Below, one piece after another: positions 17,427-62,570 of a stretch of 64,000 bases of DNA. Origin of the DNA: Gottschalkiaceae bacterium SANA. Lineage in GTDB: Bacteria > Bacillota > Clostridia > Tissierellales > GPF-1. Under the pieces are notes generated by a model. It made no database searches. It worked only from the letters and a program-made list of their open reading frames with translations, and was not told where the DNA came from. The translations under genes were made by a program, and so were the position numbers. The stretch is taken from positions 1,550,001-1,614,000 of the forward strand of contig AP028876.1 of assembly GCA_036323355.1 (NCBI GenBank), read 5' to 3'. Each line of letters begins with the position of its first letter. The stretch's first letter is position 1.

Positions 17427-17451
17427 CATATCTTTACAGAATCATAACTTC

Positions 17452-17602
17452 AGGCAGGTCTTCTGACTCTGGTTCATTGTCAAGATTCGCCTTCCCTCGA
17501 AAACGAAGTGGCATACTTGTATCTTGACTCACCATTACAGCGGTGGGCACGTTCAGGACTTTCACCTGATTCCCTATTCTCCCCGAAGGGCACCTGAAAT
17601 AT
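17452..17602 (-). promoter_or_regulatory. Cobalamin (AdoCbl) riboswitch
   Basis: The minus strand shows the class signature in order: AGGTGCCC near the 5' end, GGGAATCAGGTG, CCCACCGCTGTAA, the B12-box region GTATGCCAC, and the conserved 3' end AGTCAGAAGACCTGCC. Ligand binding should favour the downstream terminator, so cobT falls when cobalamin is plentiful. Confidence 0.93.
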
Positions 17603-17619
17603 GGTATTCATTTAACTAG

Positions 17620-18993: not shown

Positions 18994-19028
18994 TAAAAAA
19001 AGCCCTCTACATGTTTAACATATAGAGG
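18994..19028 (-). terminator. T-box regulatory terminator
   Basis: On the minus strand CCTCTATATG pairs with CATGTAGAGG, followed by GC and a seven-base T-run. It is the terminator alternative of the T-box antiterminator. Confidence 0.88.
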
Positions 19029-19265
19029 ACGCCATTAGCGTGGTGCCACCTCAATTGGTTATCCCAAAGGATAACCCACTCTTTCAGATACGGGAATAAC
19101 CGATATCCTATCTCTGTAACGGGAGATGCCCGTGTTGCCTACTCGAAATCTTTCAGCGCCCTCTCATAAGCCCATTCAGCATGCCTTAAAATGTCGGATT
19201 CCCACCATTGCCGACTCTCTACAATTTTTCGGTATACCTACTCTTCTTACTCAACGATTTATAAT
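19029..19265 (-). promoter_or_regulatory. T-box leader with tryptophan specifier
   Basis: The minus strand carries the T-box sequence GAGGTGGCACCACG (19035-19055 region), the stem I AGTA/GGTGG elements near its 5' part, and a specifier loop reading CTGAATGGGCT with codon TGG at 19174-19172, i.e. tryptophan. Uncharged tRNA-Trp should stabilise the antiterminator and turn on trpB. The specifier matches the downstream gene, which supports the call. Confidence 0.92.
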
Positions 19266-35893: not shown

Positions 35894-35940
35894 GAAGCCG
35901 CTTGTTCTCCTGAGTCTGGGAGAAGAGGGGGGCTTTTTTA
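35894..35940 (+). terminator. Intrinsic terminator
   Basis: AGCCGCTTGTTCTCC pairs imperfectly with GGGAGAAGAGGGGGGCT and is followed by TTTTTA. Confidence 0.75.
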
Positions 35941-36037
35941 TTGAAGGCTTGAAAATCATTCTGTGCATAATAAATTGTCATGGAAATTGATGTATTGTGA
36001 AGAATTTTATTTTTATCGAAGATCTGCTTAATATATA

Positions 36038-36085
36038 TTGATAAAGAAGCAAGAATGATATAGACTGTAAATTAATAACAGTCTA
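36038..36085 (+). promoter_or_regulatory. Probable promoter with overlapping palindrome for the ECF/MobB operon
   Basis: TTGATA and TAGACT are 17 bases apart (36038-36066). The -10 forms the left arm of a perfect 8-bp inverted repeat TAGACTGT / ACAGTCTA (36061-36085, nine-base spacer), which could be an operator or a leader hairpin. Transcription would start near 36073, upstream of the riboswitch. Confidence 0.45.
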
Positions 36086-36118
36086 AGTTTTTGGGAAAGA
36101 TTAATTGCATAGCAAGGA

Positions 36119-36208
36119 TTCCGAGTCTATCGCTCTACGGGAAACTATGAGCGATAAACCTATGGGTAAACGAAGAAATTTGCTTGCCTCCCGTGTTTGG
36201 AAAGGAAG
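36119..36208 (+). promoter_or_regulatory. Moco/Tuco-family riboswitch aptamer (transporter operon)
   Basis: Folding by eye gives: a short P1 (TTCC 36119-36122 with GGAA 36204-36207); the junction GAG; hairpin 1 with 8-bp arms TATCGCTC / GAGCGATA capped by a GAAA tetraloop; hairpin 2 with arms GGTAA / TTGCC, an A-C mismatch, CGAA / TTTG and another GAAA tetraloop; then the 3' strand CCCGTGTTTGGAAAGG. That 3' strand nearly equals, from memory, the end of the E. coli moaA Moco riboswitch. The P3 hairpin of E. coli is missing, as in the variants proposed to sense the tungsten cofactor. A covariance search was not possible here. Confidence 0.72.
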
Positions 36209-36257
36209 AAGTACCCGCTTTATTTGGCGTTCTTTCTTATGGGGAGAACGTTTTTTT
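36202..36257 (+). terminator. Riboswitch expression platform: antiterminator and terminator
   Basis: The terminator is CGTTCTTTC (36228-36236) with GGGGAGAACG (36241-36250) and a seven-base T-run. An alternative stem pairs AAGGAAGAA (36202-36210) with TTCTTTCTT (36230-36238), which would block it. The aptamer P1 3' strand lies inside this antiterminator, so ligand binding should free the terminator and switch the operon off. Confidence 0.7.
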
Positions 36258-36288
36258 GTTGAAAGAATTAACTAAAATGGAGGGAGAA

Positions 36289-36807
36289 ATGAAACGATCA
36301 AAGCAAATCCTATGGATCTGTATGAGTTTATTAATCATATTCTCTTTGCGCGGTTGGGCACTTCATAATCAAGCAACTCCTCTCGCAAAACGATTCTCTT
36401 CTCAAGTGGAAACTTTTGAAGCCAAGTATGGAAAGGGTGAGAAAAACACAGGGAATGAGCAAGTCTTACTTAGCTATCGAATGGATGAGGACAAAAAAAG
36501 ATTTCTTGCTGCTGGCCAGGGATATGAAGACTGGATCTTGTTAAATGTGGTGATTGACAAGGAAGAAGTTGTTGAGGTTGGAGTGGTTTATAGCAAGGAG
36601 TCGGATGGATATGGTTCTTATGTTGAGGAGGAGTGGTTTTTAGAACGCACCTTGCTCAAACTTGATCCGGCTCTTGAACTGGTTAAGTATCGAAAAGAAT
36701 CATCCAATGAAGTTGTGGCAATAACGGGGGCGACAATGACCAGTCAGGGTGTTGTCGACGCGATTAATTCATGCATAAAGATGAAGGAGGAGACAGAATA
36801 TGAGTAA
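36289..36807 (+). CDS. Membrane-anchored FMN-binding domain protein
   Basis: This 172-aa protein has an N-terminal anchor (about 6-25) and an extracytoplasmic FMN-binding domain (RnfG/NosR type). The motif EVVAITGATMTSQGVVDAIN (about 141-160) contains T-G-A-T, where ApbE-type flavin transferases attach FMN to Thr. It is a candidate electron carrier at the membrane surface. AGGGAG precedes ATG 36289; the longer frame from 36184 runs into the riboswitch. It is the first gene of the operon and overlaps the next gene by eight bases. Confidence 0.82.
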   Translation: MKRSKQILWICMSLLIIFSLRGWALHNQATPLAKRFSSQVETFEAKYGKGEKNTGNEQVLLSYRMDEDKKRFLAAGQGYEDWILLNVVIDKEEVVEVGVVYSKESDGYGSYVEEEWFLERTLLKLDPALELVKYRKESSNEVVAITGATMTSQGVVDAINSCIKMKEETEYE

Positions 36808-38389
36808 GCAGTTAAAATCAAAATTAAGTTTATTGTTGGTTGTATTGATGGGATTGGTGGTTTTGGGAGGATGTTCTTCAACGGAAGCAAGCGAAGCGCC
36901 TGAAGTGATAGAAACAGCCGGTTATCAATATGATGGAGAGTTGATGTTTACCGGTGAGGGGGTATCATTTTCTATCGCCTATAACGACCTCTACGAAAGA
37001 GTTGCCGTTAGCCGCGAGGTAAAGAATGTTTCTTCCAGCGGAGAAGAAAGTGTTAATCAGGTGAAGGGCGTTGTATTGGGCGATTTGCTGCAAGAGCAAG
37101 GATTGTCACTAGGTGATTATTCGAGTATGCGTTTTACCGCAGCTGACGGATATGCCATTGATGTACCTGCAGAAATATTAGCAGAGAAAGAAATTATTTT
37201 AGCCTATGAATTTGACGGCCAAGCATTGTCAGAGAAAAAAATGCCTTTGCGTGTTGCCATTGACGATGTTCGTTCCATGTACTATGTTTCGAATTTGGCA
37301 TCGATAGAGCTATTCTCTGATTCGACTGAAGAAGCTGTTGTTGAGTCAAGTGACCGTAAAATTGTATGGATTGAAACAGCAAGCCAAGGGCTGGAACAAG
37401 AAATCTATACATATTATGAAAATGAAGATCAAGCCATTATGGTGAAGGATCTTCTGACAGCCCATGTGGATGCGGACTATTCAAAAGTTGAATTCGTTGC
37501 TTCTGATGGATTTGAAAAAACGGAAAGTGCTGATGTTGCCGATCAGGCATACTTGAAAGTAACCGGAGAAGACGCCCCCTTGTTTACGGGCATTGATCTT
37601 CCAAAGGGCATGAATGTGAAAAGCATTGCCTTTATGGATGTTGCTAATGTAACTTTCGTCTCTGCTCAACAAGCGATGGTTTTGTTGGGCCAAGCGACAG
37701 TGGGTGACGACCTGGGTGTATCCTTGGGTCAGATTATAGAAAAATCCGGATTGGAAGGTGACTTCTTTACACTGACTGCCAATGATGGGTATGGGGTTGA
37801 AGTACCGAAAGAAGCCATTAAAGACGGCGTTGTCTATGTGAATAATGATGGCACCAACACAGTGAAATTCAATGGTGATTATCCAAAAAATACAAAAATA
37901 AAGAACTTGTTGTCTATCGTTTCAAGCGATGGTGCAAACGCGATTGTTATTGAGACTGCAGAATCGGAAACTGCGCCAGAAGCTTCAGAAGCGGTTGTTG
38001 AATCAGGTGAGTGGGCAATCGAATTTGATGGCTTGTCAGATGGAGCATTTACCTTTACTAGCGACAAGGCGGAACGCAAGTTGACACGTGTTGCTTTGCA
38101 TACAGAACGTATGAAAAACGATGTTGTTAAAGCGAATGATTGGGAAGGCTACAAACTGATTGATATTTTAGATTTCTTGCATGTTGAAAATTATACCGAG
38201 TTGACGATTGCTTCACTTGACGGATATGAGGTTGTATTGATGGCGAATCAAGTCGATGATGAAACCCTTCTTGCAGTTGTTCAAGATGGTCAAGTTATGA
38301 GCGAACCGGATAACAGGGTTCAATTGGTTCAAAACACTGAGTTTTCAACCACGTGGGTGAAAGGGGTCGCAAAGATCACGGTGAAGTAA
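36800..38389 (+). CDS. Lipoprotein with repeated SUOX/molybdopterin-binding-like modules
   Basis: The 529-aa lipoprotein (lipobox VLGGC, Cys about 25) is built of about four repeats. Each has a 'G-V-x-L-x-x-L-L' helix and an ADGY-type turn: TAADGYAIDVP, VASDGFEKTE, TANDGYGVEVP and ASLDGYEVVLM. This pattern resembles the oxidoreductase molybdopterin-binding (sulfite oxidase) fold, without the catalytic Cys region. It lies between the FMN protein and the ECF S component, so I infer a surface substrate-binding role for the transporter, possibly for a pterin cofactor. The fold assignment is by eye. Confidence 0.65.
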   Translation: MSKQLKSKLSLLLVVLMGLVVLGGCSSTEASEAPEVIETAGYQYDGELMFTGEGVSFSIAYNDLYERVAVSREVKNVSSSGEESVNQVKGVVLGDLLQEQGLSLGDYSSMRFTAADGYAIDVPAEILAEKEIILAYEFDGQALSEKKMPLRVAIDDVRSMYYVSNLASIELFSDSTEEAVVESSDRKIVWIETASQGLEQEIYTYYENEDQAIMVKDLLTAHVDADYSKVEFVASDGFEKTESADVADQAYLKVTGEDAPLFTGIDLPKGMNVKSIAFMDVANVTFVSAQQAMVLLGQATVGDDLGVSLGQIIEKSGLEGDFFTLTANDGYGVEVPKEAIKDGVVYVNNDGTNTVKFNGDYPKNTKIKNLLSIVSSDGANAIVIETAESETAPEASEAVVESGEWAIEFDGLSDGAFTFTSDKAERKLTRVALHTERMKNDVVKANDWEGYKLIDILDFLHVENYTELTIASLDGYEVVLMANQVDDETLLAVVQDGQVMSEPDNRVQLVQNTEFSTTWVKGVAKITVK

Positions 38390-38404
38390 CCCGGAGGTAT
38401 TCTT

Positions 38405-38962
38405 ATGAAAGAGTTGCGAGGATTGAGTATTTTTGAATGGGTATTGATGGCGCTGATGGCATCCCTTGGGATTGCTACCAAGCCTATTGTTGTACCGCTG
38501 GCACATATGATAACAGGTCCCCTCTTTATACCAGGGGGGGCCTTTGCTGGTGGATTTTATATGCTCTGGTTGGTTTTGGCTGGTGGATTGATCGGGAAAC
38601 GTGGTGTACCGACCATGACAGCCTTGATTCAGGCGATGATTATTGTGGTGACGGGCAGTTTTGGAAGTCATGGATTAATCAGCATCGTGACCTATACCTT
38701 ACCTGGTCTGATGATTGATCTCTTCTTCTTTTTGATTCGTCGAAAATGGGAAACACCCTTTGATTTCTTTTTTGCTGGCATGATTGCCAATCTAACGGGT
38801 ACCTATTTGACCAATTTGGTATTCTTTCGTTTGCCTTGGCTGCCGCTTGTGATGACATTGGCGAGTGCCTTGTTGTCCGGTGGAATAGGTGGTGTGATTG
38901 CCTATCAAATTTATCGACGGATTCAGGTAACGAGGAGGGGAAAATATGAAGAAAAAAGTTGA
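38405..38962 (+). CDS. ECF transporter S component
   Basis: The 185-aa protein has about five to six membrane helices and the general look of an energy-coupling-factor substrate-specific subunit: a small-residue-rich first helix (VLMALMASLGIA) for contact with EcfT, a GGAFAGGFYMLW segment and a basic cytoplasmic end. I cannot assign it to a known vitamin subfamily. Linked A, A' and T genes lie 2 kb downstream, so this is a group I (dedicated) ECF system. Ribosome binding site CGGAGG. It overlaps the next gene by 17 bases. Confidence 0.8.
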   Translation: MKELRGLSIFEWVLMALMASLGIATKPIVVPLAHMITGPLFIPGGAFAGGFYMLWLVLAGGLIGKRGVPTMTALIQAMIIVVTGSFGSHGLISIVTYTLPGLMIDLFFFLIRRKWETPFDFFFAGMIANLTGTYLTNLVFFRLPWLPLVMTLASALLSGGIGGVIAYQIYRRIQVTRRGKYEEKS

Positions 38963-40427
38963 GAAGCTTCTTGTGCTTCTCTTTCTTGTCTTCTGTGTTC
39001 TAAGTGGATTCACAGCTTGCCAGGACACTGAAATGACAAGCCCCTTAATCATTCGGGGTGATGTGGCAGAGAATATTGCAGTTCAAACAATTTGGTCAAG
39101 CATGGAAAAATCAACGATTGAGTGGAATGGAGAAAACGTTAAGGGCGTGGCTTTGCAAGCGCTAGTGGGTGAAGGTTTTCTTTATGAAAAAAATGACTGG
39201 ATTCTGCTTGCTGAAGATGGATTTATGGTACGTCTTGATGGTGAGACCATATCTGATACTTTTATGGCTTACGACTCGGAACGTCAGTGGTTTTATATGT
39301 CCGACAAACATCCAGTTAATAGCCGTGTGAAACATATTAAGGAAATTATTGTTGTAAAAGATGAGGCACAACAGGTTGTTTACGATTCAGGAATCAATTT
39401 GGTGTTGGGGGAAGAAAATCATCACTTCTCCATGGGAGAATTGCTGGTGCGGGATCATCAAGTGATTATGCAGACTGATGGGATCAGCCGATCCGGTGAG
39501 ATCGCTATTGAAGTAATGAAGCAAAAACGCGTGATTCCACTGAATGGTCTGATTGAGATTCCTAACCAACAAGCACTTATTGTTACTCGGAGCGGTGAGA
39601 TGATCTATGAAGCCGCTGAAGGCGGTATGCTGGAATTGGAAAATGGAGCCATAAACTATCGAAGACAAAATTCGTCGGAAGTTATTCGGGATCTGGTTGG
39701 CATTATGTTAGATCCGCCAGCAGGATCCAATATGGATGCCTACTATGATGCAAAATATTATATGGAACACGAAGAACCTGTTTTGGTGCTCTTTTTGGAT
39801 GGGTTTTCCTATGAAGAGTATAGAGCGCTTTGTAAAAACCATCCAGATTTCTTTATGACGAATTTGCCAGAATTTGATCGGGCAACAAGTGTCTATCGGC
39901 CGGTAACCAATGCGGGTTTTGCTGCTATGGTGACTGGACAGCCACCGAGTGTCAACGGGATTCATGATCGCAGCGGGCGTGAATTAACTTGTTCAAGTAT
40001 CTTTTACGAAGCAGAAAAAAACAATGTCGAAAGCTTATTGGTGGAAGGCGAAATTAAAATTTTGAACCTACCAGGTGAGACCATTCTAAATCTCGATCGA
40101 AATGAAAATGGAACAAGCGATGATGAGATCTTCGAATCGGCAATGGAAAAATTAGATTCAGAGAAATACGGATATACCATGGTGCACTTTCACAGCATCG
40201 ATGATGCTGGACATCAATCGGGTCCTTTAGGAGACTTGACTTGGCAGCGAATAAAAGAAGTAGATGAGTATGTGAGGGCTTTGGTGGCAGCTTGGGATGG
40301 ACGCGTCATTATCACTGCGGATCACGGCATGCATCAGGAAGGTGAAGGCGGCAATCACTGGGACTTCCGCGCGGAAGACCTGACGATTCCCTATTTGACG
40401 TTGCAAGGAGGAAAAGCAAATGAATAA
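38946..40427 (+). CDS. Exported protein: SUOX-like module plus nucleotide pyrophosphatase/phosphodiesterase-like domain
   Basis: The 493-aa protein has a signal segment ending in a lipobox-like FTAC (Cys about 25), an N-terminal DGY-type module (LLAEDGFMVRLDGE, about 77-90) and a C-terminal alkaline-phosphatase-superfamily domain of NPP type. The metal and catalytic sites are visible: FLDGFSYEEY (first Asp), RPVTNAGFAAMVTG with the Thr nucleophile, HFHSIDDAGHQSGP, ITADHGMHQ and a late NHWDF His. NPP enzymes split pyrophosphate or phosphodiester bonds, so it could strip a nucleotide from a dinucleotide cofactor such as MGD outside the cell; that is inference. Confidence 0.75.
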   Translation: MKKKVEKLLVLLFLVFCVLSGFTACQDTEMTSPLIIRGDVAENIAVQTIWSSMEKSTIEWNGENVKGVALQALVGEGFLYEKNDWILLAEDGFMVRLDGETISDTFMAYDSERQWFYMSDKHPVNSRVKHIKEIIVVKDEAQQVVYDSGINLVLGEENHHFSMGELLVRDHQVIMQTDGISRSGEIAIEVMKQKRVIPLNGLIEIPNQQALIVTRSGEMIYEAAEGGMLELENGAINYRRQNSSEVIRDLVGIMLDPPAGSNMDAYYDAKYYMEHEEPVLVLFLDGFSYEEYRALCKNHPDFFMTNLPEFDRATSVYRPVTNAGFAAMVTGQPPSVNGIHDRSGRELTCSSIFYEAEKNNVESLLVEGEIKILNLPGETILNLDRNENGTSDDEIFESAMEKLDSEKYGYTMVHFHSIDDAGHQSGPLGDLTWQRIKEVDEYVRALVAAWDGRVIITADHGMHQEGEGGNHWDFRAEDLTIPYLTLQGGKANE

Positions 40428-40944
40428 GCAAAACAAATCAATCCTTGGAATTATCGTCGTACTCGTTGTGATTTTGGGTGTGACAGGATATTTAAATCGC
40501 GGAGCAACTGCAGAGAAGTCTGCACTCAATGAAAACGCGGTTTTCAAGGTGTTGGTTAATGGCGAAGAGATTGCTAGTAAAAATATGGTGGAAATTCAAG
40601 CCTATGGGGAAGTGGATTTTGAGGCCAACTTGAAGACCAGTGGTAAAGATCCGATTCCATATACGTATTCTGGTGTTCTGCTAAAAGCTATTTTGGAAGA
40701 TGCAGGGGTGGATTTGTCGGATGCAAAAGGCGTTGTGGTTTCGGCGGTTGACGGGTATGCGGTCTCCCTTACCATGGAGAAAATTTTAGCCGACGACAAT
40801 GTATATCTTGCCTATAAGCGGGATGGTGAATTGATTGGAACTCGTGAAGAAGGCGGAAAAGGACCCTATCAGATGATTATCAGCAAGGATGCTTTCAGTC
40901 AATATTGGTGTAAATATGCCTTGTCCGCGGATGTTCAGAAATAA
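40420..40944 (+). CDS. Membrane-anchored single SUOX/molybdopterin-binding-like domain protein
   Basis: The 174-aa protein has an N-terminal anchor (about 8-25) and one complete module: YSGVLLKAILEDAGVDLSDA, VVVSAVDGYAVSLTMEKIL, YLAYKRDGELIG and a C-terminal GPYQMIISKDAFSQYW. This follows the order of the oxidoreductase molybdopterin-binding domain (helix, DGY turn, lid, basic strand), though no cofactor-ligating Cys is evident in the usual place. It overlaps the genes on both sides by a few bases, indicating tight coupling to the ECF ATPases. Confidence 0.7.
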   Translation: MNKQNKSILGIIVVLVVILGVTGYLNRGATAEKSALNENAVFKVLVNGEEIASKNMVEIQAYGEVDFEANLKTSGKDPIPYTYSGVLLKAILEDAGVDLSDAKGVVVSAVDGYAVSLTMEKILADDNVYLAYKRDGELIGTREEGGKGPYQMIISKDAFSQYWCKYALSADVQK

Positions 40945-41633
40945 TGAAAGAAGCGATGGTTCAAATCCAAGGCTTGAATTTCTGTTATCAAAAGGAAAAA
41001 CCACTGTTTCGAGATACAAGAGCGGTGTTTTATCGCGGTCAGATCACCGGTATCGTTGGATTGAGCGGTTGTGGAAAATCAACCTTGCTTCGCTTGATTA
41101 ATGGAAATTTGAGAATGGATAAGTGGCCGGAGGCCTCAGGAAAAATTCTGATTGAGGGAAAGAATCGTGAAGTTTGGAATCAAGATGAACTGATCCAGAA
41201 GATGGGAACCGTGTATCAGGATCCAGATTGCCAAATTCTATTTTCTCATGTAGAAGACGAATGGGTATTCGGTATGGAGAATTATCAATTGTCACCGGAA
41301 GAAATGGATATGCGTATGGAGAATGTCTGTGAGCTTTTACAGATTCATCATTTGCGCCATCGCAATCCCAATGAATTGTCAGGTGGCGAAAAGCAATTGG
41401 TGATTTTGGCATCAATTCTTTGTTTGGAGGCTGAAATTTTCATTTTGGACGAATGTATGACTCAGGTTGATGTGGAAGGGCGACAATTGATTTTTGCAGC
41501 CTTAAAGCGATTAAAAGCGGCAGGGAAGACTTTGATTTTGGTTGAACATGAAGAAGAACATTTACAGATTGCGGATCGGGTGTATCGATTGCAGGATCAG
41601 AAATTGACAGATGAACTTGTGAAGGGGTTATAG
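40944..41633 (+). CDS. ecfA: ECF transporter ATPase (EcfA)
   Basis: This 229-aa ABC ATPase has Walker A GLSGCGKST (about 38-46), Q-loop YQDPDCQ, signature LSGGEKQLVILASI (about 140-153) and Walker B IFILDECMTQVD (Glu followed by Cys instead of the usual Pro). Q-D-P in the Q-loop is typical of CbiO/EcfA proteins. Start ATG overlaps the stop of the preceding gene (TAATG). With the next ATPase it forms the heterodimeric motor. Confidence 0.88.
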   Translation: MKEAMVQIQGLNFCYQKEKPLFRDTRAVFYRGQITGIVGLSGCGKSTLLRLINGNLRMDKWPEASGKILIEGKNREVWNQDELIQKMGTVYQDPDCQILFSHVEDEWVFGMENYQLSPEEMDMRMENVCELLQIHHLRHRNPNELSGGEKQLVILASILCLEAEIFILDECMTQVDVEGRQLIFAALKRLKAAGKTLILVEHEEEHLQIADRVYRLQDQKLTDELVKGL

Positions 41634-41635
41634 GC

Positions 41636-42298
41636 ATGGCATATTTTGAAGTGGATGGTATTTCTTACGGGGTTCGTGGGCGAAGCATATTCAATCATAT
41701 TAGTTGTCAATTGAATCAAGCGGAATTTGTATCACTAGTAGGAGCTAATGGAATTGGGAAAACCACATTGGCCAAATTAATGATGGGTATTCTGACGCCA
41801 GAGGCTGGCCAAATTCGTTTGGATGGAAAACCGATGTCCAAGCTCGCTCTTTACGAGGTAGGCCGTAAGATTGGATATCTCTTTCAAAATCCTACGAGTC
41901 AGATCTTTTGCGCGACCATTCAGGAAGAATTGCTCTTTGCTCAACGATTTCAGGGTGGAGAGACGCCTGAGGGAGAGGCGCGGGCTAAGGAAATGATTGA
42001 CCGTTTTTCCCTTCATGAGGCGAAGGACAGTCCGGTTCATGCCTTGAGCCATGGTGAAAAGCAGAGATTGGCTTTGGCAACGATCATGATGAGCCAGCCA
42101 GAGTATTTAATTCTAGATGAGCCAACGACTGGACTTGATCAAGTCCGAAAGGCAGAGCTGGGCAAATACTTGAAGGAAATCCATCAATCGGGCGTGGGGA
42201 TCTTGATGATCAGTCATGACCATGGTTTTGTTAAAGAAATGAGCCAGCGGATTTTGAGAATGGATGAGGAGGGATTGCATGAAGAAAATCTCTTTTGA
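41636..42298 (+). CDS. ecfA: ECF transporter ATPase (EcfA')
   Basis: This 220-aa second ATPase of the ECF motor has Walker A GANGIGKTT (about 37-45), Q-loop LFQNPTSQIF, signature LSHGEKQRLALAT (about 137-149; His replaces the usual Gly) and Walker B LILDEPTTGLD. It starts two bases after the partner ATPase and overlaps ecfT by 20 bases. Confidence 0.9.
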   Translation: MAYFEVDGISYGVRGRSIFNHISCQLNQAEFVSLVGANGIGKTTLAKLMMGILTPEAGQIRLDGKPMSKLALYEVGRKIGYLFQNPTSQIFCATIQEELLFAQRFQGGETPEGEARAKEMIDRFSLHEAKDSPVHALSHGEKQRLALATIMMSQPEYLILDEPTTGLDQVRKAELGKYLKEIHQSGVGILMISHDHGFVKEMSQRILRMDEEGLHEENLF

Positions 42299-43001
42299 TC
42301 CAAGAACGAAGTTATTTGTTGTCTTATGTTTGTCAACGGCTGCTGTTGCTTTTCCAGAATGGCAAAATTTACTTAGAGTGACCTTGGTTGGTATTGGTTT
42401 TGGATGGGTATTTTCTGTTCCATTTGGCAGTTTATTAAGGCGGTTTTCAAGAATTCTGACTTTGTTTTTCGGCTTGATCCTTGTGCAGAGTCTCTTTACC
42501 CATCAAGGGGAAGCGATTCTTCAGATTGCCAGAGTTCCCATTTTGACAACAGTTGGCTTGGAACGGGGATTGGCCTACTTATTTCGGGTGGTCATCATCC
42601 TCTTGTCTGGCTCTATTCTGGCTACATCGAGTATGCGGGATCTCTTGCAGGCTTTGCAGCAGTTGAAACTGCCCTATGTGATTGGACTGATGACGGCCAT
42701 TGGTGTCAAATTTCTGCCGATCTTTGTTGCTGAGGTACAAGATGCTTTTGTTGCCATGCAACTCAGGGGAATTGATGTGAAGCATTTAAAGCTAAGAAAA
42801 AGAATTCAGGTGATCGCTTATCTGTTCATTCCATTGATTCTATCGACTTTGGATAAGGCAGAAAGATTGGCGGCTACCATTGAGAGCCGCGGATTCCGGA
42901 CTGGAGCCAAGCGATCGCATTATCGGAAACTGAAGCTGAGACGACAAGATTTGATTTGCATGATGATTGTACCGATGGTCATGCTTTTGACGAGAGTATA
43001 G
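42279..43001 (+). CDS. ecfT: ECF transporter transmembrane component (EcfT)
   Basis: The ~240-aa coupling subunit has about five to six membrane helices and the two cytoplasmic Ala-Arg-Gly-like coupling motifs, seen as MQLRGID and IESRGFRTG, that sit in the ATPase grooves. GGAGGG before ATG 42279 supports this start over 42264. Together with EcfA, EcfA' and the S component encoded at 38405 it makes a full ECF importer. Confidence 0.88.
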   Translation: MKKISFDPRTKLFVVLCLSTAAVAFPEWQNLLRVTLVGIGFGWVFSVPFGSLLRRFSRILTLFFGLILVQSLFTHQGEAILQIARVPILTTVGLERGLAYLFRVVIILLSGSILATSSMRDLLQALQQLKLPYVIGLMTAIGVKFLPIFVAEVQDAFVAMQLRGIDVKHLKLRKRIQVIAYLFIPLILSTLDKAERLAATIESRGFRTGAKRSHYRKLKLRRQDLICMMIVPMVMLLTRV

Positions 43002-43011
43002 GAGGAATCAT

Positions 43012-43773
43012 ATGAAAGTTATATCCGTTGTTGGCTATTCGAAATCTGGCAAAACAACTACGATTGAGACGATTATTCGAGAGTTGCGTAAACGAAACTA
43101 TCGAGTGGGGAGCATTAAGGATATTCATTACGAGGGGTTTCAAATCGACACGGACGGAACCAATACGGATCGCCATCGAAAAGCGGGATCAGAATTGGTG
43201 ACGGCAAGAGGGCTGCATGAGACCGATGTATTGTTTTCGGATCGATTGGACCTATACGCCATGGCGCGATTCTATGATGTGGATTTTTTAATTGTTGAAG
43301 GGATTCGGGAAGCCAATACACCGATTATTTTAACAGCAGACAAGATTGAAGATTTGGACCAACGCTGGAGTGACCATGTATTTATGGTTTCTGGTAAGAT
43401 TGCTGATGAGATTGATGAATACAGGGGAATGCCTGCCATTAGTGTGTTACAAGATCCGATGGCACTGGTTGATCGAATTGAAGAAACTGCTTTTGATTTG
43501 TTGCCTGATTTTCCGGCGACTTGCTGTACCGCTTGCGGGGGGACTTGCAGGGAACTATGCGCGGCAATTCTAAGAGGGGAAAGAGAGCGGAAAGATTGTG
43601 TTCTCGATCAAGCGCAAGTACGATTGTCTGTAAATGATCAACAGATTCCCATGGTTCCTTTTGTACAAAATATTCTTAGAAATGCAGTGCTTGGCGTTGT
43701 AAAGGAATTGGAAGGATCTCAAGACGATGCAAAGATTACGATTGAAATTGGTCCGTCATGGCAGCAAAAATGA
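43012..43773 (+). CDS. mobB: MobB-type GTPase with C-terminal Cys-rich domain
   Basis: The first ~160 of 253 residues are MobB, the P-loop adaptor in molybdopterin guanine dinucleotide synthesis: GYSKSGKTTT (about 6-15), KDIHYEGFQIDTDGTNTD, with the D-x-x-G-T-N-T-D family motif, and FLIVEGIRE (Walker B-like). A Cys-rich linker follows, CCTACGGTCRELC (about 171-183) plus one more Cys, which could hold a metal or Fe-S cluster, and then a ~55-residue domain (VRLSVNDQQIPMVPFVQNIL). AGGAGG precedes the start. Finding MobB in the ECF operon links the transporter to Mo/W pterin cofactor. Confidence 0.85.
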   Translation: MKVISVVGYSKSGKTTTIETIIRELRKRNYRVGSIKDIHYEGFQIDTDGTNTDRHRKAGSELVTARGLHETDVLFSDRLDLYAMARFYDVDFLIVEGIREANTPIILTADKIEDLDQRWSDHVFMVSGKIADEIDEYRGMPAISVLQDPMALVDRIEETAFDLLPDFPATCCTACGGTCRELCAAILRGERERKDCVLDQAQVRLSVNDQQIPMVPFVQNILRNAVLGVVKELEGSQDDAKITIEIGPSWQQK

Positions 43774-44414
43774 AAATGATGCAAGAATGTATTCCCATTG
43801 AATCGAGGCGAAATGATGTGTGGCATTGCCAATGGGATGGTAAAGATAGGATAAGAAAATGCTTTGCTGCACAAGTGGACTATTTACAGGAGAAAAGAGT
43901 CTATCGGCACTTGTTGCAAGTATCGCCTCAATTATGTCCGGATGTAATTGACTTTGACGATGTGGGAAGAGAAATGATTTTGGAGTATATTCCTGGCGTC
44001 ACGGTTTTGGAAGCACTTGAAAAGGCTGAAGAAGAAATGGATCAAGAGAGGGCGGTCGTGATTTTCACACGACTACTTGATTGGATGCAGGTGTTTTACA
44101 AGGATCAAAAGACAGAGAATAATCAAGGGATTAGGGGAGATATTAATCTTCGAAATTTCATATGGACTGAGCAGTATGTCGTTGGAATTGATTTTGAGGG
44201 ATGTTGCTTAGGTGATCGGGTTGCTGAAATTCATCGAATGATTGCCTTCTATCTTCTCTATAAGCCAGAAAAAACAAATTTCAAGTTATCGGTGGTTGGT
44301 GCTGTAATGGACATCATACTTCAAATGACGAATCGTTCTTTGTTATTTTTCTGGGAATCAGTTGAGGGAGAGATGGAAAAAATTCTTTTTAGAAGGAAGA
44401 TAGAGAATAGATAG
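43758..44414 (+). CDS. APH/choline-kinase-like small-molecule kinase
   Basis: The 218-aa protein has a compact protein-kinase-like fold as in aminoglycoside phosphotransferases: EMILEYIPGVTVLEAL (hinge), GIRGDINLRNFIW (catalytic loop with Asp and Asn; R-G-D replaces H-G-D) and VGIDFEGCCLGD (metal-binding Asp of the DFG-like motif). It overlaps mobB by 16 bases (an alternative ATG is at 43770) and ends the operon. In a salvage operon it could rephosphorylate an imported cofactor precursor; this is inference. Confidence 0.72.
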   Translation: MAAKMKMMQECIPIESRRNDVWHCQWDGKDRIRKCFAAQVDYLQEKRVYRHLLQVSPQLCPDVIDFDDVGREMILEYIPGVTVLEALEKAEEEMDQERAVVIFTRLLDWMQVFYKDQKTENNQGIRGDINLRNFIWTEQYVVGIDFEGCCLGDRVAEIHRMIAFYLLYKPEKTNFKLSVVGAVMDIILQMTNRSLLFFWESVEGEMEKILFRRKIENR

Positions 44415-44421
44415 CATATAA

Positions 44422-44447
44422 GAAGGGGCGAAAGCTCCTTTTTTTTG
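44422..44447 (+). terminator. Terminator of the ECF/MobB operon
   Basis: AAGGGGC pairs with GCTCCTT around loop GAAA and is followed by TTTTTT. Confidence 0.85.
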
Positions 44448-60030: not shown

Positions 60031-60050
60031 GAAGATAGAATTGGAGAACG

Positions 60051-60135
60051 ACTCCGAGTTCTATTGGCCAGTAATGGGGAATAGAACCGTAAGGGTTAAA
60101 CCAGTAATGGATTAGCCTGCCGTTTGCAAAGGAGT
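60051..60135 (+). promoter_or_regulatory. Moco/Tuco-family riboswitch aptamer (AOR operon)
   Basis: By-eye folding gives P1 ACTCC (60051-60055) with GGAGT (60131-60135), the junction GAG, hairpin 1 with arms GTTCTATT / AATAGAAC topped by CCA-GTAA-TGG, hairpin 2 with arms GGTTAA / TTAGCC, an A-A mismatch and again CCA-GTAA-TGG, then TGCCGTTTGCAAAGGAGT. The layout and 3' strand match the leader at 36119-36208 and the Moco aptamer as I remember it, without P3. The next gene pair encodes a W/Mo-pterin enzyme system, the expected context. Confidence 0.72.
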
Positions 60136-60178
60136 TCAGTCTACTGTGATTTATTATGGTGGATTGAGCTTCTTTTTT
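60129..60178 (+). terminator. Riboswitch-controlled terminator
   Basis: AAGGAGTTCAGTCTAC pairs with GGTGGATTGAGCTTCTT (some G-U), followed by T's. Its left arm contains the P1 3' strand of the aptamer, so a ligand-stabilised P1 should prevent termination and switch the operon on. The ~120 bases to the next start codon hold a strong GGAGG site and nothing else recognised. Confidence 0.75.
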
Positions 60179-60298: not shown

Positions 60299-60700
60299 AT
60301 GAAGCCAGGAAGAATTAAGATTCAAGTGAATGCAAGCGTGTGTCAGGGTTGTCGCGTTTGTGAAAGTGTCTGTAGCCTGAGTCATATCGGGGCAGTGAAT
60401 CCGAATCAGACAGGAATCAAGATCACAGAAACAAAAATTCTCGGAAAATTCAAGCAAACCGTTTGCCAGCAATGCATCGATATGCCTTGTGCTAGTGCAT
60501 GTCCGGAAAACGTTATCACTCGAGACCGATATTCGGGTGCGGTTGTGATTGGTGATGGATGTATTGGCTGTGGTGCTTGCCAAGAGGCTTGTCCCATCAA
60601 TGCGATTCAAATGTGGAATGATACGGCAGTCAAATGTGATCTTTGCGGAGGATCGCCGAAATGTGTGGAGGCTTGTCCTAGACAAGCATTGAGCTGGTAA
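60299..60700 (+). CDS. Four-cluster ferredoxin-type subunit (AOR partner)
   Basis: The 133-aa protein has four [4Fe-4S] binding motifs: CQGCRVCESVC (C15-C25), CQQCIDMPCASACP, CIGCGACQEACP and CDLCGGSPKCVEACP. This is the HycB/CooF-like electron-transfer subunit often encoded with aldehyde ferredoxin oxidoreductases, carrying electrons between the oxidoreductase and ferredoxin or another acceptor. AAGGAGG precedes the start; the AOR gene follows 10 bases later. Confidence 0.92.
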   Translation: MKPGRIKIQVNASVCQGCRVCESVCSLSHIGAVNPNQTGIKITETKILGKFKQTVCQQCIDMPCASACPENVITRDRYSGAVVIGDGCIGCGACQEACPINAIQMWNDTAVKCDLCGGSPKCVEACPRQALSW

Positions 60701-60710
60701 GGAGGAGACG

Positions 60711-62570
60711 ATGAAAGGCTATCGAGACTGTGAATTGCGAATCAATTTAAAAGAGAAGTCGATTGAGAAGAAGGCATTAAATTCGGAATATATTGAGAAA
60801 TATATGGGTGGAGAAGGCTATGGGATTGCTTTGTTATGGGACGAAATGCCTCATAAAATTGACCCATTTGATGATCGAAATCTATTAAGCTTCAACACCG
60901 GGCCTTTGACGGGGACACCTGCACCCAGCGCATCCCGTACCAGCGTTGTATTTATTTCGCCACTGACCGGAACGATTGGGGCATCAAACATGGGTAGTCA
61001 TTGGGGTGCTGAGTTAAAATTTGCAGGATACGATTCAATAGTTCTAGAAGAGGCTTCGAAAGAGCCTGTTTACATATTGATTGAAGAAGACCAAGTATCC
61101 ATTCATGATGCAAAAGAACTATGGGGTCTAGATACGAGAAAAACGACGGAAGAATTGATAAAAATTCATGGCGAGAATCATAAAGTCGTTTGTATTGGTC
61201 CTTCGGGAGAAAAACAAAATAAGCTGGCTGCGATTTTTTCTGACGATTGTTTTGCTGGACGCGGCGGAGCCGGTGCGGTGATGGGTCAGAAAAAGTTGAA
61301 AGCCATTGTAGTTCGGGGAAACGGCAGTGTGGAAGTCGCGGATCCAGAAGGCTTTATGAAGATGCAAAAGAAGGCGATACAAGAATTGAGAAGTGAGGAA
61401 TATACCTGGGGTCCAGTTCATGGGTACGGAACGCCTACATGGCTGGATGGGTCTAACGACTGCGGTTTGCTACCAGTTGATAATTTCAAGAGAAATCATA
61501 CGGATAAACTGGATCCAATTTTACCGTCTGAACTTTGGAATAATCGAGAGAAATTTGATGTGAAACGCAGAACTTGCTATGCATGCCAATTGGGTTGTCA
61601 TAAATTTGTGATGATGGGGGATGTTGAAGTCGGTGAATTGGAATATGAAACCATTGCTGCTTTTGGCCCACGATGCGGAGTGTATAACTATAAAGATATT
61701 TCCATGGCAAATTATTATGCATCAATCTATGGGATTGATACGATTTCAGCTGGTGCTACGGTTTCTGCAGCCATGGAATGGTATGAGAAAGGCATTCTAA
61801 CAAAAGATGATTTAGATGGACTCGATCTGAAATTTGGCAATGGCGAAGCCATGGTGGAATTGATTAGAAAAATGTGCCTGCGTGAAGGCTGTGGAGAATT
61901 GTTTGCAGATGGGTCTTATTGGGCAGGAGAAAGAATTGGAGAAAAAGCGAAGCCTTATGTGATGACGGTGAAAAAGATGGAAATTTCAGCTTGTGATCCA
62001 CGAGGAGCGGCATCTATGGCAATTTCTTTTGGAACGAGTGAGCGTGGTGCTTGCCACATGCGTCCTTACTCAGCAACGATCGATGCTTTTGGTTATCTTT
62101 TCCCTGATTTAGGTATTGAGGAAGCAAAAGATCCTTTCAGTGAAACTGAGTCTAAAGTATGGTTGAAAGCGCTAAAGGAATACTTCGTCGTCACCAACCT
62201 GATCGGGCTTTGCGATTTCAATGTAATCAACATGGAGATTCAACCATCGACCATGGCAGAACTCTATGTGAAAACAACTGGGATTCCTTGCGACAAAGCT
62301 GAATTGCTTAGAAAAGCCGAGCGTACCATTGCTTTGGAACGTGCATTGAATTATGAACGCGGATTCCGAAGAAAAGATGATCATCTGCCAAAACGTTTTA
62401 TGAAGGAACCAGCTTTTGGCGGTCCGGCGAAAGGCAGGACCATCGATATGGATGCAGCCTTGGATAAATACTATGAAGCGTGTCACTATGACAAGGAAAC
62501 TGCCATACCGACAAAAGAGAAGTTTGAGGAATTAGGCATGGAAAATGTTGCTGCGACGATTTATCAGTAA
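60711..62570 (+). CDS. aor: Aldehyde ferredoxin oxidoreductase (tungsten/molybdenum pterin enzyme)
   Basis: The 619-aa AOR-family enzyme oxidises aldehydes to acids (or the reverse) using a bis-pterin tungsten or molybdenum cofactor. Landmarks: GGEGYGIALLW, SFNTGPLTGTPAPSASRTSV in the N-terminal pterin-binding domain, SNMGSHWGAELKFAGYD, GGAGAVMGQKKLKAI, the cluster motif CYACQLGCHKF (about 287-297) with the fourth Cys in LIGLCDFN, and DPRGAASMAIS. Length is typical. It lies under a MerR-type promoter and a cofactor riboswitch, and two genes ahead of an AcoR-type activator. Confidence 0.95.
   Translation: MKGYRDCELRINLKEKSIEKKALNSEYIEKYMGGEGYGIALLWDEMPHKIDPFDDRNLLSFNTGPLTGTPAPSASRTSVVFISPLTGTIGASNMGSHWGAELKFAGYDSIVLEEASKEPVYILIEEDQVSIHDAKELWGLDTRKTTEELIKIHGENHKVVCIGPSGEKQNKLAAIFSDDCFAGRGGAGAVMGQKKLKAIVVRGNGSVEVADPEGFMKMQKKAIQELRSEEYTWGPVHGYGTPTWLDGSNDCGLLPVDNFKRNHTDKLDPILPSELWNNREKFDVKRRTCYACQLGCHKFVMMGDVEVGELEYETIAAFGPRCGVYNYKDISMANYYASIYGIDTISAGATVSAAMEWYEKGILTKDDLDGLDLKFGNGEAMVELIRKMCLREGCGELFADGSYWAGERIGEKAKPYVMTVKKMEISACDPRGAASMAISFGTSERGACHMRPYSATIDAFGYLFPDLGIEEAKDPFSETESKVWLKALKEYFVVTNLIGLCDFNVINMEIQPSTMAELYVKTTGIPCDKAELLRKAERTIALERALNYERGFRRKDDHLPKRFMKEPAFGGPAKGRTIDMDAALDKYYEACHYDKETAIPTKEKFEELGMENVAATIYQ

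Follow-up and report, generated by a model that had tools for sequence, protein, structure and literature searches.

Here we describe an operon of Gottschalkiaceae bacterium SANA (GCA_036323355.1, contig AP028876.1, positions 1,550,001-1,614,000 of the forward strand; this whole stretch of 64,000 nt is called the window) that quite probably encodes an uptake and salvage system for the tungsten or molybdenum cofactor (Tuco/Moco), and that probably allows anaerobes to take up this cofactor ready-made from outside. The riboswitch in front of the operon, the fold of its DGY modules, its linkage to AOR and its presence in genomes devoid of Moa proteins support the interpretation of salvage by import, which the initial annotation of this DNA had put forward.

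Riboswitch and genes of the operon

The operon spans positions 36107-44414 (+) of the window and comprises, downstream of the riboswitch, ten genes (A to J) that all lie on the (+) strand and overlap or leave short gaps between them, in the order FMN_bind, DGY lipoprotein, S, NPP, DGY, two ECF ATPases, T, MobB and APH. The single, tightly coupled operon of the initial annotation was thus recovered, and its gene set is more than a chance assembly because it recurs in 62 loci. The sigma-70-like promoter candidate in front of it (TTGATA-17-TAGACT, 36038-36066, +) is weak, three promoter-like sites having been found when 1.2 were expected. The Moco/Tuco-type riboswitch passed the covariance search, with the RF01055 aptamer at 36107-36223 (+) scoring 65.1 bits (gathering score 36). 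In the RF01055 alignment this aptamer lacks P3, and it folds into a single stem before P4; we classify it as tungsten-type on the basis that the P3-less type has been linked to Tuco, as stated in the excerpted text of PMC2408646. The hairpin with a T-run at 36226-36252 (+), which resembles an intrinsic terminator (one found compared with 0.3 expected in shuffled sequences), is likely the riboswitch's expression platform, judging from sequence. When the segment from the first conserved block to P4 was folded, 55 of 63 riboswitches gave one stem, four gave two stems and another four no parse; in three of the two-stem cases (L014, L030 and position 60040 of the window) the anchor was too far 3', the remaining one being L051:3965. 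The pattern-based P3 test classified 42 of the 63 as short-joined, some of these being misanchored, and left 21 unparsed.

Four genes form a complete ECF transporter at a single locus, as had been claimed, and all four were found by family profiles: the S component C (38405-38962, +; PF09819, supported by a family alignment), the ATPases A (gene F, 40944-41633, +) and A' (gene G, 41636-42298, +), both with an intact Walker A and signature motif, and the CbiQ-type T component H (42264-43001, +; PF02361). The best NCBIfam models for the two ATPases, TIGR04520 and TIGR04521, were both matched under their curated cut-offs, and the T component also fell under its NCBIfam equivalog cut-off. The S profile had no match in a PDB sequence search, and no match to S was found in plasmids. 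The family PF09819 presumably also includes YkoE, linked to thiamin/HMP, and one may imagine that the operon serves to take up a different redox cofactor (heme-like, flavin, thiamin/HMP or a folate-type pterin) with the riboswitch merely coupling it to tungsten metabolism, to which would be added that the PruR relatives of the DGY modules bind ordinary pterins, according to the excerpted PruR text. We regard this as extremely unlikely, given the specific links of the operon to AOR, MobB and RF01055, the latter being the only Rfam family found at 35900-36500. Thiamin/HMP and cobalamin importers were rejected in particular, since the operon has neither a TPP nor a cobalamin riboswitch; the one for cobalamin at 17436-17612 lies on the opposite strand, distant from the operon.

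The remaining cytoplasmic-looking genes, with no visible export signal, follow the transporter. The protein I (43012-43773, +; PF03205) is a MobB P-loop GTPase (81.1 bits against the TIGR00176 cut-off of 76.2; P-loop GYSKSGKT) with a Cys-rich, Fe-S-like tail that fits MobB/FeS models, including PF04060 (FeS), under their cut-offs. The protein J (43758-44414, +) is an APH-like kinase (PF01636, 30.3 against 23.2 bits) that keeps the catalytic Asp and the D-x4-N and DFE motifs, both of which occur in nine of nine aligned kinases. Both assignments agree with those made initially. Among the relatives of J, L007 (one of six scanned) and L024 pass the APH cut-off, others being below it or RIO/ABC1-like; a PDB search with the kinase returned just weak protein-kinase matches, and PADLOC gave no match for NPP or the kinase.

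Six of the ten proteins (A, B, C, D, E and H) look exported or membrane-bound by sequence. Gene A (36289-36807, +) encodes the exported FMN-binding protein previously noted (PF04205), membrane-anchored and with a TGATMT flavinylation-type motif, which we take to be a target of ApbE and whose form is found in 21 of 22 HMM relatives; its start is most likely the ATG at 36289, after GGAGGGAGAA, rather than the TTG of the longest open reading frame. Of the three exported proteins said to carry modules like the sulfite oxidase (SUOX) pterin-binding fold, B, D and E do carry the DGY module, but the copy in D is weak and B has several. The exported lipoprotein B (36800-38389, +) matches PF00174 in two stretches and has two clear SUOX/PruR-like DGY modules, or up to four if weak ones are counted. 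In D (38946-40427, +) the weak DGY-like N-terminal part precedes the exported NPP-type phosphodiesterase/pyrophosphatase domain that had been predicted (Phosphodiest, PF01663), whose best PDB matches are NPP3 and Xac NPP; residues D285, H414, D419, D459, H460 and H471 are invariant in 32 aligned sequences and T321 is nearly so, and we take these to be the metal ligands and nucleophile of the NPP/alkaline phosphatase superfamily. The membrane-anchored E (40420-40944, +; PF00174) is a single module with the DGY positions conserved in its family alignment, and its structure model (pLDDT 90.6) adopts the PruR/sulfite oxidase fold, bearing out the SUOX-like fold proposed for these modules: its PDB matches are PruR and SUOX (top Z about 14-16), with E = 1.9e-7 against PruR 7kou, and another PruR structure, 7rkb, was solved with neopterin. 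On this model, the DGY module is of the SUOX/PruR fold and a candidate pterin binder.

Recurrence of the operon and its linkage to AOR

The S gene is common to 62 loci, mostly from Clostridia but also from Cloacimonadota and Asgard archaea, and the gene set is mostly kept: DGY proteins are present in 60, the ATPases in 57, T in 55, MobB in 46, NPP in 39, the kinase in 37 and FMN_bind in 19 loci, many loci being truncated by contig ends. RF01055 lies upstream of S in 44 of the 62 (within 4 kb in 40 of these); the other 18 lack one there in the available DNA, which in six of them is shorter than 1.6 kb. All 50 operon genomes searched contain RF01055; it also occurs in 2 of 14 control genomes, and in 4 of 8 genomes that had been selected.

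In the window itself, a second RF01055 riboswitch (60041-60150, +) fronts a ferredoxin-like gene (60299-60700, +; Fer4 families) and an AOR gene (60711-62570, +; AFOR_N and AFOR_C). AOR is present in 46 of 51 operon genomes and, in a sample taken evenly across classes, in 16 of 17 genomes bearing S compared with 37 of 376 others (p 2e-14 in Fisher's test, kinship ignored), so that the operon is not spread widely among genomes free of pterin enzymes. What one expects of Moco/Tuco salvage, namely Mo/W enzymes present and cofactor biosynthesis dispensable, is hence found in the 46 of 51 genomes with AOR and the 21 of 51 without MoaC.

Cofactor biosynthesis in the operon genomes and the compound probably imported

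Both MoaA (over cut-off) and MoaC are absent from 21 of the 51 operon genomes, and 19 of these 21 also lack MoeA; AOR is present in 19 (the exceptions being G022 and G033). AOR thus accompanies the operon into genomes without these biosynthesis genes, where co-occurrence had been suggested as a check. One of them, L034, is titled a complete chromosome and has a two-domain AOR without MoaA, MoaC, MoeA or TupA. None of the 21 has a TupA-like protein or a PF13531 match of ModA strength (G028 has a single PF13531 protein, at 116 bits, whose kind is uncertain), compared with TupA in 25 of the 30 operon genomes with MoaC; we say TupA-like because the query protein scored 225 bits where the cut-off is 400, the NCBIfam TupA model being its best and sole match.

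Most of the 21 are metagenome-assembled genomes (MAGs), but random gaps are unlikely to be the whole cause of the missing Moa genes: the chance of at least 21 of 51 missing is about 6e-9 at 10% loss per genome and about 4e-4 at 20%, genomes without MoaC group together on the S tree (10 changes, compared with 16.5 when shuffled, 0 of 500 shuffles being as low), one chromosome is complete, and G099 of the class sample, 98% complete, has S and AOR without MoaC or TupA. Some absences may still be gaps, since L033 and L035 have near-identical S proteins and differ in MoaC. The moa, moe and tup genes are grouped together in the window genome, and their joint absence is therefore partly one event; controlling for kinship on the tree leaves only two independent supported MoaC contrasts, so that the link between TupA and MoaC is then not significant. 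In the even sample, MoaC absence among AOR genomes was no commoner with the operon's S gene (2 of 16) than without it (5 of 37, or 4 of 36 once the fragmentary G111 is left out), and G260, G327 and G407 have AOR with no MoaC, S, TupA or RF01055.

These genomes bear on what would be imported. That the operon imports tungstate or molybdate is a hardly tenable reading, to which the excerpted text of PMC2408646 lends the observation that this riboswitch class also governs molybdate and tungstate transporters. We reject it because the operon is kept in genomes without MoaA, MoaC and MoeA, where the bare oxyanion would be useless, and because TupA- and TupB-like genes already occur in the window genome, downstream of yet another RF01055; the pterin-fold proteins, NPP and kinase would moreover be needless for oxyanion uptake. 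Import of a pterin that carries no metal (MPT, dephospho-MPT or a cPMP-like compound), with the metal entering separately and being inserted inside the cell by MoeA where present or with the help of MobB, is more plausible but unlikely. The sole MoeA of the L045 genome lies inside the operon, MoaA, MoaC and TupA being missing there, MobB is present in 46 of 62 loci, and the PruR proteins that come closest in structure are binders of small pterins, as far as the excerpted PruR text goes; against it stand the 21 MoaC-less genomes, 19 without MoeA and all without TupA and proteins of ModA strength. Because MoeA and TupA are missing, the gene content points to the metal-loaded cofactor rather than a precursor as the substrate. 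More tentatively, and with somewhat less than even confidence, we suggest that the intact metal-loaded W (or Mo) cofactor is a shared vitamin, and that bacteria such as Clostridiaceae M8S5 may be true auxotrophs which, without pterin synthesis or known tungstate import, run AOR wholly on cofactor scavenged through the ECF transporter.

Proposed mechanism and comparison with known systems

In the following scheme we infer the substrate, the direction of transport, all of the enzymatic steps and whether the metal is carried in too. Surface DGY modules of SUOX/PruR fold would catch pyranopterin cofactor shed by other cells, and the exported NPP would strip its nucleotide or phosphate. Keeping the dithiolene/pterin reduced may be the role of the FMN protein. 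The S component and ECF module would bring the trimmed cofactor in, the APH-like kinase would restore the phosphate, and MobB with its Cys-rich tail would assist in handling the cofactor on its way to AOR. The P3-less riboswitch would halt transcription at high Tuco and relieve this repression when Tuco is low. The preponderance of exported or membrane-bound proteins, a flavoprotein among them, could also be read as external capture, redox or repair for exported enzymes, or cofactor export instead of import. This is very unlikely, as MobB and the kinase have no export signal and AOR in Moa-less genomes would be left unexplained; to our knowledge, every ECF module composed of S, A, A' and T is an importer.

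Moco and Tuco are usually held to be too labile for trade between cells, each user being expected to make its own. If salvage by a dedicated importer is true, the cofactor would be exchangeable, alongside B12 and heme, which may account for the survival of bacteria that have tungsten enzymes but no cofactor synthesis genes. It would also hint at what tandem SUOX-fold surface proteins bind, and provide a growth factor to try when culturing tungsten-dependent anaerobes.

The operon resembles ECF micronutrient transporters with a dedicated module and a PF09819-type S component, in which S, A, A' and a CbiQ-type T lie in one operon, and the B12 and thiamin ECF systems are likewise controlled by riboswitches sensing the end product. 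It differs from them in having a Moco/Tuco riboswitch and, in the same operon, exported SUOX-fold modules, NPP, FMN_bind, MobB and a kinase; in the literature searched, no ECF transporter for a Moco/Tuco-type substrate is described. The DGY module is like sulfite oxidase's Moco-binding domain in fold and PF00174 membership, but it stands alone, at the size of a binding protein and without partner domains. With PruR (7kou, 7kom, 7rkb) it shares fold, size and export; PruR, however, partners DcpA in signalling in Proteobacteria, whereas here single and repeated modules stand next to an ECF transporter, mostly in Clostridia. The PruR pocket is probably too small for Moco, which counts against Moco capture (both points from the excerpted text of PMC13259868). 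The operon shares with the Moco/Tuco RNA regulon of Regulski et al. 2008 (PMC2408646) RF01055 of the P3-less type linked there to Tuco; the words "cobalt" and "MobB" are absent from the main text of that paper, though an ECF gene without a name may be listed in its supplement. Finally, the orphan molybdoprotein organisms of PMC6147048 likewise have cofactor-dependent enzymes but incomplete Moco biosynthesis and, for the most part, no known Mo transporter; in its excerpted text the orphans belong mostly to the DMSOR and XO families, compared with AOR in the 21 genomes here, and new biosynthetic parts or Mo-independent enzymes are proposed rather than import. If true, the import of ready-made cofactor would provide an explanation for some of the orphan genomes that this work, in that text, left open.

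Anatomy of the operon and type of its riboswitch

Window positions 36107-44414 (+) read, from their sequence, as a single transcription unit. It opens with an RF01055 aptamer of the molybdenum/tungsten pterin cofactor (Moco/Tuco) class at 36107-36223 (+; 65.1 bits, where the gathering score is 36), followed on its 3' side by a hairpin of 12 pairs and a T-run (36226-36252, +). The most plausible start of the first open reading frame is 36289, with GGAGGGAGAA preceding it. Ten genes, separated by short gaps or overlapping, come after the hairpin and encode, in order, an FMN_bind protein (A), a lipoprotein of DGY repeats (B; PF00174, DGY being a SUOX/PruR-like exported module), a PF09819 S component (C), an exported protein that combines an NPP domain with a weak DGY part (D), a single-DGY protein (E), two ECF ATPases (F, G), a CbiQ-type T component (H), MobB with a Cys-rich tail (I) and an APH-like kinase (J). 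The initial annotation had described this operon accurately; the proteins carry ATPase, P-loop and kinase motifs and, in the FMN_bind protein, one that we take to be of flavinylation type.

The operon's riboswitch is, judged by its sequence, of the tungsten type. Helix P3 is absent from its Rfam alignment, and among 63 riboswitches of the window and the 62 loci described below, detected with our own model derived from 11 of the set, folding gave a single stem before P4 in 55, two stems in four (three of these explained by a misplaced anchor) and no parse in four. The portions of Regulski et al. 2008 (PMC2408646) drawn on here give 58 of 176 Moco RNAs as lacking P3, place genes indicating Tuco metabolism also in 17 of the 19 organisms with P3-less RNAs, and state that direct ligand binding by Moco RNAs could not be shown in that study. 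Apart from the operon, the window holds a cobalamin riboswitch (17436-17612, -) and a T-box leader (19022-19263, -).

Conservation and association with tungsten enzymes

Matches to the S protein among contigs, with one genome per species, gave 62 loci, where partner genes were counted by tblastn or HMM within 9 kb of S, contig ends cutting many loci. DGY modules were found at 60 of the 62 loci, the ATPases at 57, T at 55, MobB at 46, NPP at 39, the kinase at 37 and FMN_bind at 19. A same-strand riboswitch lies upstream of S at 44/62 loci (40 of them within 4 kb); among the 18 without one, six have less than 1.6 kb of upstream DNA and the others more. RF01055 occurs in 50/50 operon genomes searched, a count made in operon genomes only. 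Loci L025, L029 and L032 have two or three Moco/Tuco riboswitches in front of the operon, arranged in tandem or near one another, and tandem copies stand about 6 kb before S at L024. MobB and S stay together at the three Heimdallarchaeota loci (L055-L057), with T in two of the three, and no riboswitch was detected at them; at L056 and L057 ATPase matches lie 8-9 kb off on the opposite strand.

The initial annotation proposed asking whether the operon co-occurs with aldehyde oxidoreductase (AOR, counted by its domain AFOR_C), and it does. AFOR_C is present in 46 of the 51 operon genomes (50 reached via the loci plus the window's own), a set selected by S. In an even class sample of 393 genomes (minimum completeness of 90 requested), 17 had S, counted at >200 bits with three S-profile matches of 124, 118 and 21 bits left out, 53 had AFOR_C and 94 MoaC; AFOR_C occurred in 16/17 genomes with S versus 37/376 without (Fisher p 2e-14, kinship ignored). 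A second RF01055 in the window (60041-60150) lies 5' of a ferredoxin-like gene and an AOR, and another, elsewhere in the same genome, precedes genes like those for the tungstate-binding protein TupA and TupB, after which MoeA, MoaA and MoaC follow. We regard as real a conserved uptake operon tied to the tungsten/molybdenum pterin cofactor, of which our literature searches returned no earlier account.

Other RF01055 loci were also observed. In the window's genome one (G000:C1:1024229-1024344) lies 5' of the gene for a Big_5 protein and of those for a further transporter (L094:5893-10159, - strand; G000:C1 about 1019892-1024158) consisting of a FecCD permease, an ABC ATPase and a Peripla_BP_2 binding protein, with a small 'DDTDNL' protein also there. 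Genome G099 (L093) has its ECF operon linked to a FecCD/Peripla_BP_2 set and a protein weakly resembling TiaS, so this regulon may contain two importers. In the complete genome G032 the only further RF01055 match stands in front of an aldehyde dehydrogenase gene (PF00171; L087:5849-7480) and the one AOR sits in a separate cluster (L088), an arrangement that might let AOR and the ordinary dehydrogenase replace each other in a cofactor-dependent way. In genome G040, with no match for MoaC, MoeA or TupA, RF01055 (G040:C7:90292-90409) lies some 0.5 kb 5' of the gene for a MatE-family transporter (L089:6943-8262), which might export the cofactor or a pterin or be a neighbour by chance.

Operon genomes without cofactor biosynthesis

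Genomes lacking moaA or moeA, which the initial annotation had singled out, do carry the operon. MoaA over cut-off was found in 27/51 operon genomes (G027 having additionally a contig-edge fragment), MoaC and MoeA_N in 30 each and a TupA-like protein (TupA below) in 25. All 21 MoaC-less genomes also lack MoaA over cut-off; 19 of them have AFOR_C, two (G014, G043) have MoeA, the other 19 being without it, and none has TupA or a PF13531 protein at >=140 bits (G028 has one of 116 bits). Among the 30 MoaC-bearing genomes, 25 have TupA and 13 PF13531 at that threshold. TupA and MoaC are associated in the 51 genomes (Fisher p 7e-10, kinship ignored), but only two kinship-independent contrasts had support, and Moa, Moe and Tup genes are clustered in the window's genome, so that their joint absence counts as one pattern and not four. 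MoaC absence clusters on the S tree, which is not expected from random assembly gaps.

The strongest single Moa-less case is the genome of Clostridiaceae M8S5 (L034), designated a complete chromosome, with all ten gene kinds in its operon and an AOR with both domains, where we found no MoaA over cut-off and no match for MoaC, MoeA or TupA. At L045 a three-domain MoeA lies between MobB and the kinase, by coordinates the sole MoeA match of a genome where MoaA, MoaC and TupA were not found.

The even sample argues against reading the operon alone as an auxotrophy marker there, since MoaC absence among AFOR_C genomes is no commoner with S (2/16) than without (5/37, or 4/36 once G111, with a 28-bit fragment, is left out). 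Genomes G260, G327 and G407 (98-100% stated completeness) carry AFOR_C, with MoaC, S, TupA and RF01055 all not found; G239, with TupA, five RF01055 and 530 contigs, is probably an assembly gap. In G022 and G033 the operon is present and neither MoaC nor AFOR_C was found. The genomes are mostly MAGs.

Proposed uptake route and comparison with known pterin proteins

The SUOX-like fold proposed for the DGY modules is borne out for the single module of E by its predicted model (pLDDT 90.6). In the PDB this model matches sulfite oxidases and the pterin-binding PruR proteins best (Foldseek E 1.9e-7 against PruR 7kou; in VIA, Z 16.2 against sulfite oxidase 3hbg and 15.7 against PruR 7kos). The predicted model of D scores 92.8, and the catalytic domain in it matches NPP3 and Xac NPP, with putative metal ligands conserved; the kinase motif is retained in nine aligned members, some closer to RIO/ABC1 than to APH.

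We infer every step past the anatomy, from capture to feedback: B, E and D would capture the cofactor, D would strip nucleotide or phosphate, C together with F, G and H would import the product, J would restore the phosphate, MobB would handle the imported cofactor and the riboswitch would give feedback. The lack of MoeA and TupA in most Moa-less operon genomes suggests that the metal travels together with the pterin, and the MoeA inside the L045 operon points to the handling, there at least, of pterin that is metal-free or has lost its metal. The probable function is import of the cofactor itself or of a compound closely derived from it, and import with the metal, sustaining true auxotrophs, is a tentative reading that we hold somewhat below even chances.

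We found no description of a molybdopterin, Moco or Tuco importer in the open-access literature among the 8-15 best-ranked papers per search, of sometimes over 100, subscription papers and bioRxiv lying mostly outside it, and a term search for molybdopterin and ECF in a survey of extracytosolic flavinylation (PMC8238504) returned nothing. Moco enzymes without a Moco pathway are counted in 292 bacteria, plus 13 with nitrogenase, in the sections of PMC6147048 used here, which suggest biosynthesis by an unknown route or Mo-independent enzymes. According to excerpts of a review (PMC13259868), how pterins pass across membranes is unknown, and PruR has no Mo-ligating cysteine, binds reduced pterins and probably does not accommodate Moco. 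By comparison with these PruR traits, pterin binding by E may fairly be inferred from its model, and Moco binding less so.
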